Source: Lactobacillales bacterium (lineage in GTDB: Bacteria; Bacillota; Bacilli; Lactobacillales; Streptococcaceae). From it: a stretch of 13,966 bases of DNA. The stretch spans positions 1-13,966 of the forward strand of contig JAIRNX010000097.1 in NCBI GenBank assembly GCA_031257815.1. Reading direction: 5' to 3'. The translations under genes were made by a program, and so were the position numbers. Every line of letters starts with the position of its first letter. Position 1 is the stretch's first letter. The notes under the pieces were generated by a model that ran no database searches, had not been told where the DNA came from, and worked only from the letters and a program-made list of their open reading frames with translations. Below are positions 512 through 5,512 of this stretch, in pieces.

Positions 512-795
512 TAAGAACCTGTTAACTTGTCTCTATAATTGTGAATTTTTTTGAAAATTTTATACCTTTTGTTGTCAAAAAACCTCGAAATAGCACCACT
601 ATTTCTACGTTTATGGTGACAAGAAAACTTCGTTTTCTTTTATTCGTTACCTAAAAGCTGTGCTTTTAGCCTAGAAATGCACAAAAATTTCTCAAAAAAA
701 AACTGCCCTGTTACCTACGAATTGTTTTGAGCTTGCTTGATTACAATCGCAAAAAACGGGATTCATCAATAGAGAGACAAGTTAACAGACTCTTA
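512..795 (+). repeat. Hairpin repeat copy A, 284 bp, before atpB
   Basis: The ends are inverted repeats of about 34 bases: the left reads TAAGAACCTGTTAACTTGTC and the right, reversed, TAAGAGTCTGTTAACTTGTC. Inside lies a short stem, GAAATAG (587-593) with CTATTTC (599-605) around the loop CACCA, and a CCTCGAAATAG block also found, inverted, in copies B and C. Compared with those 165-bp copies it carries extra sequence. This includes two perfect 8-bp hairpins with 3-base loops, 621-639 (AAGAAAAC/GTTTTCTT) and 651-669 (CTAAAAGC/GCTTTTAG). It is in the opposite orientation to B and C, carries no gene and is bounded by TA at both ends. It fills the space where the atpB promoter or an upstream atp gene would be expected. 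Confidence 0.85.
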
Positions 796-796
796 A

Positions 797-883
797 ATGA
801 ATTTAGGAAATTTCTTTGTATTTTATAAGGAGAAGTGCTATTATTTGTGTGTTTTAAAAGCCGGCATCAAGGAAAAAAGGTGA
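797..883 (+). other. 28-codon open frame just before atpB (leader or gene remnant)
   Basis: ATG at 797 opens a 28-codon frame (MNLGNFFVFYKEKCYYLCVL, then KAGIKEKR) that ends in TGA at 881-883, inside the atpB ribosome-binding site. It begins directly after repeat copy A, whose terminal TTA supplies an in-frame stop at 794-796. No ribosome-binding site precedes the ATG. It may be the tail of a gene cut by the repeat, a leader peptide coupled to atpB, or chance. Confidence 0.2.
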
Positions 884-893
884 GTTAACTATT

Positions 894-1613
894 ATGGATG
901 AAGAAAAAACATTAATGTTTAATCTAGGTCCTGTTGTTTTTGATGGAACGATTATTTTAATGTGTTTACTCACTGTTGCTATTGTTTTTGGCTTAGTATT
1001 TTGGGCTTCAAGAAATCTTAAATTAAAACCTAAGGGTAAGCAAAATGTTTTAGAATGGGTTATTGATTTTGTTTCAAACATCGTAAAAGATAATTTGTCT
1101 TCTAAAGAATTACCCGTTTTTCAATTATTTATGTTTACCGTTTTTTCTTTCTTAATTGTTGCAAATAATTTAGGTTTAGTTACAAAAATTGTTGTTAATG
1201 ATGTTTCTTTATGGAAAAGTCCGACCGCAGATGCAGTAGTGGCTTTAACTTTTTCATTGATAATTGCGCTGTTTTGTAATTATATGGGCGTAAAGCGATT
1301 TGGTTTTAAAGGCTATTTAGTTAATAGTTTCCTGCGACCTGTACCTTTTATCGCCCCGATGAAGATAATCGAAGAGTTTACTAATTTATTAACATTAGGT
1401 TTGCGTTTGTATGGAAATATTTTTGCTGGTGAAGTGTTATTAAGTCTGATTTGCAAATTTGGACTTAGTCATGGGCCATTTTTGATACCATTTGGTATTT
1501 TTTTGGAAATGTTATGGAGTGGCTTTTCCATTTTTATTTCTTGTATTCAGGCATATATTTTTATTATATTAACGAATTCTTATTTAAGTCATAAAATTTT
1601 GGCGGAGCATTAA
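894..1613 (+). CDS. atpB: ATP synthase FO subunit a
   Basis: Subunit a is the membrane stator that carries protons to and from the c-ring. The 239-residue product has the usual length and five to six hydrophobic segments. The conserved helix with LTLGLRLYGNIFAGEV is present, including the essential arginine (R171, equivalent to E. coli R210). ATG 894 is preceded by AAAGGTGAG (876-884) at good spacing. It is the first gene of the operon. The next gene, 20 bases on, is atpF, so the atpE gene normally found between them is missing. The retained arginine argues that FO still moves ions. No clear promoter can be assigned between repeat copy A and the start. Confidence 0.97.
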   Translation: MDEEKTLMFNLGPVVFDGTIILMCLLTVAIVFGLVFWASRNLKLKPKGKQNVLEWVIDFVSNIVKDNLSSKELPVFQLFMFTVFSFLIVANNLGLVTKIVVNDVSLWKSPTADAVVALTFSLIIALFCNYMGVKRFGFKGYLVNSFLRPVPFIAPMKIIEEFTNLLTLGLRLYGNIFAGEVLLSLICKFGLSHGPFLIPFGIFLEMLWSGFSIFISCIQAYIFIILTNSYLSHKILAEH

Positions 1614-1632
1614 AAAGGAGTGTTTTTAACCT

Positions 1633-2145
1633 ATGTTAACGGCAGAAAATTTAGGAGCAACATTTGGGAATATTATCATTGCTAGTGGTTCGTTACTTCT
1701 CCTTTTATTTTTATTAAAAAAGTTTGCATGGAAGAATATTGTCGAAATTTTTGAAAAACGTGCGCAGAAAATCGCTGCGGATATTGACGAAGCTAAAAAA
1801 GCTAATTTAAATGCCCAAAAACTTGAGCAAGAGCGGCAAAAGCAGCTAGCAAATTCACAAGAAGAAGCAACAACTATTTTAAAAACCGCTAGAGAAGCAG
1901 GTGAGCGTAGTCGTCAAAATATTTTAGTGGATGCTAAAGAAGAAATTGGAAAACTGAAAGAAAAAGCTCAAGTGGATATCGAGCAAAAGCGTAAAGAAGC
2001 CTTAATAGAGGTAAAAGAAGAAGTAGCAGATTTATCTTTACAAATTGCTGCTAAGATTTTAAATAAAGAGTTAACAAAAGAAAATCATAAAACGTTAATT
2101 GATTCTTTTATCGGTAAGTTAGGAGAATCTTATGAAACGAGATAA
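1633..2145 (+). CDS. atpF: ATP synthase FO subunit b
   Basis: Subunit b forms the peripheral stalk that holds F1 against the membrane part. The 170-residue protein has one N-terminal membrane helix (about residues 10-30, with GSLLLLLFLLKKFAW) followed by a long charged helix rich in Lys, Glu, Ala and Gln that suits a coiled-coil dimer. The start ATG 1633 follows AAAAAGGAG (1612-1620), which begins at the atpB stop. The end overlaps the start of atpH by 14 bases, consistent with coupled translation. Length is typical for the family. Confidence 0.96.
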   Translation: MLTAENLGATFGNIIIASGSLLLLLFLLKKFAWKNIVEIFEKRAQKIAADIDEAKKANLNAQKLEQERQKQLANSQEEATTILKTAREAGERSRQNILVDAKEEIGKLKEKAQVDIEQKRKEALIEVKEEVADLSLQIAAKILNKELTKENHKTLIDSFIGKLGESYETR

Positions 2146-4245: not shown

Positions 4246-4259
4246 AATTACTTTCCCTT

Positions 4260-4424
4260 TAAGAGCCTGTCTACTATCTCTCTATAGATGAAATTTTGGG
4301 AAAATTTTTATGCAATTCTAGGCAAAAAACGTAAAAATAGTGGGGCTATTTCGAGGCTTTTTAACGACGAAGGGCGAAAAATTGCCGAAAAATTCGCTAT
4401 TATGGAGATAGTAGACAGGTTCTA
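4260..4424 (+). repeat. Hairpin repeat copy B, 165 bp, between atpA and atpG
   Basis: The terminal inverted arms share CCTGTCTACTATCTC exactly, a version found in neither of the other copies. The inner stem AAATAG (4335-4340) pairs with CTATTT (4346-4351) around TGGGG and is followed by TCGAGGCTTTTTAAC, as in copy C. The right end (GGTTCTA) runs straight into AAGGAG, the ribosome-binding site of atpG. There is no run of T after the outer stem, so it does not look like an intrinsic terminator. TA bounds both ends, compatible with a TA target site, though this is not proven. Confidence 0.88.
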
Positions 4425-4438
4425 AGGAGTTGTTTAAG

Positions 4439-5332
4439 ATGGGAGCTTCGTTAAATGAAATTAAAGGCAAAATCGCTTCAACGAAGAAAACCATTCAAAT
4501 TACGAGTGCAATGCAGATGGTTTCAGCGGCTAAATTAACCAAATCAGAACAATTAAGGCAAAATTTTCAAGTTTATGCTTTAAAAATTCGGTCAATTCTC
4601 ACGCATTTGACTGCTTCACAATTAGATGATTCAACGCAAGATAGTGGTGAGTTAAACATAATGCTTGCTAATCGTGAGGTTAAAAAAACAGGCTATATTG
4701 TGATTACTTCAGATAAGGGATTAGTTGGCGGTTATAATAGTTCAGTTCTTAAGAAAACCATGGGGATGATTGAGCAAGATCATGATTCTCCAGATGAATA
4801 TTTGATTTTAGCTATTGGCGGTGTTGGTGCTGATTTTTTTCGCTCACGTGGTATGAAAATTGCTTATGAATTAAGAAAAGTTGCCGATCATCCTTTGTTT
4901 GATGAAGTTCGTAAAATTGTTAGTAAAGCAATTACAATGTATCAAAGAGAAATTTTTGATGAGCTGTATGTTTGTTATAATCATCATGTTAATTCGTTAA
5001 CTGCACAATTTCGCGTGGAAAAGATGTTGCCAATTAGTGATTTGGATCCTAAAGAGGTTGAGAAAGGCAAAGTATCTTATTTGTTAGAACCTTCAAAGGA
5101 TAAAATTTTAGATGTGTTGCTTCCACAATATGCAGAAAGTTTGATTTTTGGGGCAATTATTGATGCTAAAACAGCTGAACATGCAGCAGGGATGACAGCC
5201 ATGAGAGATGCAACTGATAATGCCAAAAATATTATCAATGAATACACCATTATTTATAATCATGCACGTCAAGCAACAATTACTCAGGAAATTACGGAGA
5301 TTGTTGCAGGTGCAGCAGCGTTGGAGTATTAA
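4439..5332 (+). CDS. atpG: ATP synthase F1 subunit gamma
   Basis: Gamma is the central rotating shaft that couples the c-ring to the catalytic head. The 297-residue protein starts MGASLNEIKGKIASTKKTIQ and ends with the conserved helix carrying MTAMRDATDNAKNIINE, both standard for the family. ATG 4439 is chosen over an in-frame TTG at 4430 because AAGGAG (4424-4429) is 9 bases upstream and the protein then begins as its relatives do. The ribosome-binding site abuts repeat copy B. After the stop there is a 198-base gap holding copy C. Confidence 0.97.
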   Translation: MGASLNEIKGKIASTKKTIQITSAMQMVSAAKLTKSEQLRQNFQVYALKIRSILTHLTASQLDDSTQDSGELNIMLANREVKKTGYIVITSDKGLVGGYNSSVLKKTMGMIEQDHDSPDEYLILAIGGVGADFFRSRGMKIAYELRKVADHPLFDEVRKIVSKAITMYQREIFDELYVCYNHHVNSLTAQFRVEKMLPISDLDPKEVEKGKVSYLLEPSKDKILDVLLPQYAESLIFGAIIDAKTAEHAAGMTAMRDATDNAKNIINEYTIIYNHARQATITQEITEIVAGAAALEY

Positions 5333-5347
5333 ACTATTCTAGCGTTC

Positions 5348-5512
5348 TAAGAACCTGTTAATGATCTCTAGTGAAATGAATTTTTGAGGTATTTTTTCAC
5401 AATTTGAGGCAAAAAATGCAGGTTTAGTGGTTCTAAATCGAGGCTTTTTAACAAAAAAGTGTGGAAAAATAGCCAAAACTATTCATCGCTTCGAGATCGT
5501 TAACAGGTTCTA
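5348..5512 (+). repeat. Hairpin repeat copy C, 165 bp, between atpG and atpD
   Basis: It has exactly the length and orientation of copy B. Its outer arms read CCTGTTAATGATCTC on the left and, reversed, CCTGTTAACGATCTC on the right, a third sequence version in which the two arms still match. The inner stem is TTTAG (5423-5427) with CTAAA (5433-5437) around TGGTT, where A and B have AAATAG/CTATTT. The following TCGAGGCTTTTTAAC block is conserved. The element ends at GGTTCTA, directly before the purine-rich ribosome-binding region of atpD. Confidence 0.88.

Follow-up and report, generated by a model that had tools for sequence, protein, structure and literature searches.

Hairpin transposons in the atp genes of a Streptococcaceae bacterium, with apparently exchangeable ends and a persistent interior

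The atp genes of a Lactobacillales bacterium of the family Streptococcaceae are interspersed with long hairpin repeats whose arms differ from copy to copy while matching within each copy, and the question that they raise is what keeps the two arms in step. The window analysed here, by which we mean the whole stretch of 13,966 nucleotides (nt), is contig C39 (JAIRNX010000097.1) of the metagenome-assembled genome (MAG) G000 (GCA_031257815.1; 851,879 bases in 169 contigs, 58.9% complete), and it carries atpB-F-H-A-G-D-C together with three such repeats, A, B and C. A first-pass annotation made from the letters alone had described the three copies, their arm cores and an apical stem that changes as a pair, and had ascribed the paired change either to selection for a folded form or to repeated copying of one arm onto the other. 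Its description holds: without their flanking triplets the copies lie at 515–792, 4263–4422 and 5351–5510, the arm cores are unlike between copies and match within each with a single mismatch (in C), and the apical pair reads AAATAG/CTATTT in A and B and TTTAG/CTAAA in C, adjoining TCGAGG. The hairpins are non-autonomous transposons of the kind known as miniature inverted-repeat transposable elements (MITEs). We consider it probable that they are mobilised by IS5-type transposases, have exchangeable ends around a persistent folded core, and owe their paired changes to three different sources.

Mobility is recorded directly at the site of copy B. In a sister MAG (locus L037), whose AtpG is 91% identical, this site reads CCCTTTAAGGAG with one TAA, whereas the window has CCCTTTAA-[B]-TAAGGAG; B is thus a clean insertion with duplication of TAA, and it has left the ribosome site of atpG whole. 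The sister holds a 35-nt remnant at the site of C and a fragment of one end at the site of A. Covariance-model matches in the 852-kb G000 (133 over the two strands, with 150 of 1,992 candidates scored) merge into at least 116 places, partial copies included, which removes the concern, raised in the first-pass annotation, that the genome might hold few other copies. By DNA similarity (queries A, B and C, with the best 40 scored of 128, 181 and 179 candidates, respectively, in G000) the family is present in all five genomes of the genus and in none of 53 others. Among open-licence PMC matches listed, titles and abstract openings contained no description of it.

We harvested 126 complete copies, 60 from G000 and 66 from its relatives, 125 of which have both flanks. 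The family hairpin is about 160 nt long, with 98 of the 126 copies at 150–170 nt, and its outer 18–19 nt occur in three types, T1 (GARCCTGTTAACTTGTCTC), T2 (GARCCTGTTAACGATCTC) and T3 (GARCCTGTCTACTATCTC). Longer copies contain extra hairpin cassettes, X or Y, at recurring positions; copy A is longer because it has both inside. Searched alone against G000, X gave at least 42 matches, with 40 of its 55 candidates scored, and Y gave 29, with all 31 scored; some of these hits fall in other arms or in degenerate copies, and X was searched in three genomes. TNA stands on both sides of 113 of the 125 flanked copies and the two triplets are identical in 92, of which 55 are preceded by C and 51 followed by G. 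No open reading frame (ORF) of at least 60 amino acids lies inside A, B or C, and Rfam has no match in the window at E up to 1. Short terminal inverted repeats (TIRs) of 18–19 nt, no coding capacity, many copies, and a target duplication with its empty site identify the hairpins as MITEs. The features in the window are as follows.

515–792, minus strand (core on the minus strand): copy A, 278 nt, ends T1/T1, frame plus cassettes X and Y
512–514 and 793–795: flanking triplets of copy A, TAA and TTA, unlike each other
703–760, minus strand: cassette X, an extra hairpin in copy A, read off the alignment print
613–669, minus strand: cassette Y, two small hairpins in copy A, read off the print; the Y search matches C39:608–672
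4263–4422, plus strand: copy B, 160 nt, ends T3/T3, between atpA and atpG; covariance model 165.5 bits
4260–4262, plus strand: left TAA of the target duplication of B; in the sister MAG a single TAA
4423–4425, plus strand: right TAA of the target duplication of B, continuing into the Shine-Dalgarno-like TAAGGAG of atpG
4320–4322, plus strand: AGG side of the conserved internal loop in copy B, from the alignments
4364–4367, plus strand: ACGA side of the same loop in copy B, from the alignments
5351–5510, plus strand: copy C, 160 nt, ends T2/T2, between atpG and atpD; covariance model 167.4 bits
5348–5350 and 5511–5513: TAA flanks of copy C, the same triplet on both sides

Candidates for the mobilising enzyme lie within the genus. 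Three transposase pieces score 121.2 bits (L125), 92.1 bits (L126) and 24.2 bits (L118) with the IS5 model NF033580 (cut-off 110), and IS5-type pieces adjoin T1, T2 and T3-like ends. As judged by eye, the MITE has only its ends in common with these fragments, not its interior. TNA duplication is typical of the IS1031 group. From the terminal repeats and the TNA duplications we infer that the hairpins are mobilised in trans by IS5-type transposases. The MITE parallel drawn in the first-pass annotation is thus borne out by the inverted repeats, the TNA duplications, the empty site and the transposase pieces that adjoin matching ends.

Part of the agreement between arms follows the transposon ends. 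The left and right end types agree in 46 of the 60 copies from G000 (random mean 28.7, maximum 40) and in 57 of the 66 from its relatives (random mean 39.4, maximum 49), leaving 23 hybrids with unlike ends among 125 copies. When the first five positions are left uncounted, 46 of 98 copies have arms that match perfectly as far as nucleotide 18 and no further. In five of the 98 (L139, L184:1726, L218, L223 and L287) the match runs to 37–51 nt because one arm became the reverse complement of the other; L218 and L287 have a common end point and genome and may record one event, so at least four arm-copying events took place. Such long matches are the footprint expected of template switching, which is probably the mechanism, and PMC8794818 describes template switching as a process that keeps hairpin arms matched. 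In both cases one arm acquires tracts that are the reverse complement of its partner; the hairpins of that account belong to RNA genes, rRNA and microRNA among them, and ours to copies of a transposon. The apical stem takes three paired forms within one subfamily (B, L158 and L183) and therefore seems to move as a short unit; the same form is also found across subfamilies.

The rest of the paired change bears on whether the fold is under selection. Predicted RNA folds of A, B and C have z-scores of −6.0, −7.6 and −8.2, and for each copy none of 200 shuffles folds as well. On an alignment (A1) of 50 of the 55 frame copies, from which four converted copies and an L189 copy with a small insert were omitted, RNAalifold gives 49 pairs, 17 of them with double changes. 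With a tree-based null (our own R-scape-like implementation, one tree and 40 null alignments), 4 of the 49 stem pairs are significant (E<0.05) compared with 12 of 13,317 other column pairs, several of which are neighbours of stem pairs. Pairing is thus kept better than expected from base composition, the other point on which the first-pass annotation had made its case depend.

The direction of single changes also differs between strands. We counted changes in 90 copies (the 126 minus converted ones and all outside 155–165 nt), choosing pairs symmetrically and taking means of 100 random tie resolutions. Changes away from a Watson–Crick pair lead to G-U in 97 cases and to A-C in 43.5 (44:15 in sister pairs), and 32 column pairs favour G-U compared with 4 that favour A-C. 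Unpaired columns lean the opposite way (49.7:84.5), so plain mutation bias does not explain the excess. It comes mostly from the inner stem (45.5:13.5) and less from the TIR (51.5:30.1), with agreement between G000 (29.1:6.5) and its relatives (28.6:10.5) for the inner stem. Insertions strictly sense (22:7) or strictly antisense (16:6) to local genes show a similar bias, which therefore seems tied to the element rather than to the local operon; in wider direction groups it is weaker (27:9 sense, 24:14 antisense, 16:11 for the rest). The minimum free energy of the sense strand is below that of the antisense strand in all 90 copies, which are related, so these are not 90 independent results. The inner-stem covariation and the G-U excess suggest selection on a folded single strand, and together they provide moderate evidence that the fold of a single strand is selected, with RNA more likely than DNA.

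We extended the search to 117 genomes of the bacterial family with the covariance model from A1, using stricter filters and scoring the best 25 candidates per genome. Matches came from 14 genomes, the five of the genus and 9 of the 112 others, and 20 of the 32 listed places in other genera were fetched, none from G090. The fetched elements are hairpins of 152–158 nt with ends quite unlike the window types, falling into the classes GGGCACCTCTAAAAACT, TACTCAGTTAA (TA on both sides in 7 of 10, by eye) and GCGTGTATTAAAACT, plus one GATCCTGTT; the last is near a window type and occurs in G010, which also has the GGGCACC class. TACTC-like ends are found in 10 of the 20. An element of the same architecture is present in Streptococcus suis AP_SS21 (L060:9209–9368, 160 nt, 44.7 bits with the covariance model), and has an 89% relative in an S. 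suis phage record (KX077896.1:52758–52917), its single match in phages. That record has no annotated feature under the hairpin. Similarity searches with L317 in plasmids and phages, and with L300 in plasmids, gave no matches.

Among 23 elements, 22 from the fetched loci and one from S. suis, 92.5% of cells pair, compared with 62.4% when shuffled and 40–48% when slid, a figure that is not independent of the search, since a pairing-favouring model found and aligned the elements. On both sides, 45 of the 49 pairs change. The G-U:A-C cells number 46:17 in inner and 27:8 in outer pairs, on an alignment whose model itself favours G-U. In eight unpaired columns a single base occurs in at least 20 of the 23 elements; five of these columns (A58, G60, A105, G107 and A108) surround the G59–C106 pair to make an AGG/ACGA internal loop. 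Of the 50 window-type copies, 32 have AGG and, at the right distance after it, ACGA, as do 19 of the 23 others; with AC[GA]A allowed, the numbers are 44 and 20, respectively. Within the genus, part of this core is also present in G002 together with yet another end type, GACCTCCTCG (26–31 bits, model positions 53–111), and a remnant of an element of this type is present in the window, next to a broken end of the family itself.

~7414–7484, plus strand: second MITE type, right part, ending ..AAGGAGGTCTAA; abuts the truncated end below; identified by eye against L236–L242, limits approximate
7485–7516, plus strand: truncated left end of the same family as A, B and C, T1 type, downstream of atpC

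The occurrence of the same interior between unrelated ends indicates that the interior was kept while the ends were exchanged. As far as the sequences go, the core appears to have changed ends, in a direction and by a history that we infer. Each of the two causes of paired change put forward in the first-pass annotation finds support: arm-to-arm copying is evident in five of 98 copies, and selection for a folded strand is favoured by tree-controlled covariation, by the G-U asymmetry (not significant in the hold-out described below) and by the same architecture in other genera. Two further causes had not been foreseen, namely that the outer arms follow transposase end types and that the interior is common to elements with other ends.

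Two other repeats lie beside or near hairpins of the family. A separate near-perfect palindrome with TAGACCTCCTCGTATAATATAAACAGTTCA ends adjoins a copy in G000:C52 (L245, ~138–210), and a further end type, TTAGAACCTCGTATA, recurs near hairpin elements in the genus (L240, L122 and L135).

The nearest parallel among known repeats, and one already suggested by the first-pass annotation, is with BOX, whose intergenic modular hairpins with optional inner cassettes are matched here by X and Y in the long copies. According to PMC3049150, two end sets in S. suis BOX (boxA/C and boxE/F) surround the same boxB modules, which by analogy is a clear precedent for exchangeable ends, and the TACTC-like ends in other genera resemble those of the BOX copy L320. 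However, the frame and ends of the window family are different. The covariance model gives the one BOX copy compared, L320, 1.3 bits over most of BOX and 4.4 bits at best in the locus, and a sequence-only hidden Markov model (HMM) has no match to it at E up to 1; its fold places UAGGA opposite GACGU, only a loose resemblance to the AGG/ACGA loop. The suggestion pointed in the right direction, but L320 is not detectably homologous, so we keep the window family apart from BOX. RUP/SPRITE repeats, as described in PMC3049150, are likewise small, AT-rich, predicted to form stem-loops and present in a bacterium of the same order, with a length of ~107 bp for RUP, which we compared by description only. 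Correia and ERIC elements, compared by description and found in other hosts, are MITE hairpins reported in PMC10969869 and PMC3049150 to affect transcripts through RNase action.

The matches in other genera could in principle be unrelated hairpins that fit the structure model by chance, given that this model rewards pairing, that the S. suis element was found by structure and has no match by the sequence-only HMM, and that L308 and L314 reach only E 0.37 and 0.16 with that HMM. However, the HMM recovers 18 of the 20 fetched loci with E values no higher than 0.01, through alignments to the interior (model positions 22–146 in all 18 but L301), and at E up to 1 it matches none of 210 shuffled sequences, a control that consisted of these sequences and not whole shuffled genomes. 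The covariance model itself leaves 103 of the 117 genomes without a match at E 1e-4, and over 46 of 80 atp loci (555,622 bases) it gives one match at E up to 0.1, the S. suis element. Chance is thus a very unlikely explanation. Still more improbable is that A, B and C are host-selected regulatory hairpins that tune subunit ratios of the atp operon. B and C do flank atpG and stand directly before the ribosome sites of atpG and atpD, but the copies are scattered genome-wide in both directions, and in the sister MAG (L037) the site of B is empty, with no more than remnants left at C (35 nt) and at A. That empty site goes most of the way to refuting any role for the hairpins in the atp operon.

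A quite possible, though not probable, explanation is that these are ordinary MITEs whose paired changes all come from end types, recombination and template switching between arms, with no selection on the fold. End typing, arm copying in five of 98 copies, the template-switch mechanism already published (PMC8794818) and apical-stem forms mixed within and across subfamilies, as if one tract had moved, are all in keeping with it. It predicts neither the strand-specific G-U excess, nor the nearly invariant unpaired AGG/ACGA residues in other genera, nor the retention of the interior while the ends change. Several observations weigh against our own account, and two of them favour ordinary MITEs. 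Unlike triplets flank 10 of the 23 hybrids compared with 23 of the 102 matched-end copies (p 0.064; the link had p 0.003 before more copies were included), which suggests, without proving, recombination between copies, and in a hold-out set of 26 long copies the G-U bias falls short of significance (inner 21:16.5, TIR 19:11.5). Moreover, the bias has no clear dependence on insertion direction, which misfits simple selection on operon transcripts; there is no clear insertion bias relative to genes (25 sense and 19 antisense of 90; 21 and 13 of 60 in G000 alone); recombination breaks the single-tree assumption of the covariation test; and the pairing in other genera shares the bias of its model. 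The transposon with the same ends envisaged by the first-pass annotation is represented by the IS5-type fragments beside T1, T2 and T3-like ends, and among the pieces read from G000–G004, with the MAG 58.9% complete, those with these ends are short or broken and none is intact; an unbroken 483-residue frame in G003:C36 has no such ends nearby. The fold might also be selected as single-stranded DNA of one strand, for example as a substrate for a recombinase, replication or DNA uptake. The asymmetry follows the element strand and not clearly the local gene direction, and G-T wobble is milder than A-C in DNA too, both of which count for this idea; IS5-type elements are thought to move as double-stranded DNA, which counts against it, and we regard it as unlikely. 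On balance we see about an even chance that one strand is under selection to stay folded in single-stranded form, with RNA the likeliest.

Other features of the window concern its genes. No atpE (c subunit) lies between atpB and atpF (1614–1632), nor, by eye, at this position in the sister locus L037; the genome was not searched for atpE, which may sit elsewhere or be missing from the bin. Positions 1–893 hold no plus-strand ORF of at least 60 amino acids, and a small minus-strand frame read by eye at 1–237 is rich in Gly and Ala with cysteines and is possibly a bacteriocin-like peptide. On the minus strand at 10363–13818 are three adjacent genes for a D-Ala ligase, a VanY-family D,D-carboxypeptidase and a VanT-like fusion of acyltransferase and alanine racemase, a set that we take to resemble the vanC/vanG type. 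The best PDB match of the ligase is 4fu0, D-alanine--D-alanine ligase 7, with the match beginning at residue 94 of the chain.

The account that we favour, of IS5-mobilised MITEs with a persistent core, would run as follows. IS5-type transposases would recognise the 18–19-nt ends and insert the elements at C-TNA-G sites with duplication of TNA. The interior is a folded core that is also present between unrelated terminal repeats in other genera, with the ends as the exchangeable part. Paired change would then arise from the replacement of one transposase end type by another combined with recombination among copies, from one arm being copied over its partner, probably through template switching, and from selection on the fold of a single strand, RNA being the most likely form. 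The insertions in the atp operon are recent or decaying and unconserved there, and any effect on expression would presumably be that of an intercistronic hairpin just upstream of atpG and atpD.

Small hairpin repeats tend to be regarded as passive side products left by insertion sequences, and here a folded middle persists across genera. More tentatively, the AGG/ACGA-loop module may be a single-stranded, probably RNA, unit under selection within one bacterial family that hitchhikes between unrelated ends (IS5-like TNA, TACTC, GGGCACC and others). It would then be an RNA, selfish or interacting with its host, that switches from one transposase to another, and BOX might be distantly related to it. 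With its many copies, arm-conversion footprints and hybrid ends, the family is also a good natural record for tracing how the two arms of a palindrome stay in step, and the combination of exchangeable ends with a persistent middle offers a concrete test of whether hairpin repeats survive because their single strand folds.

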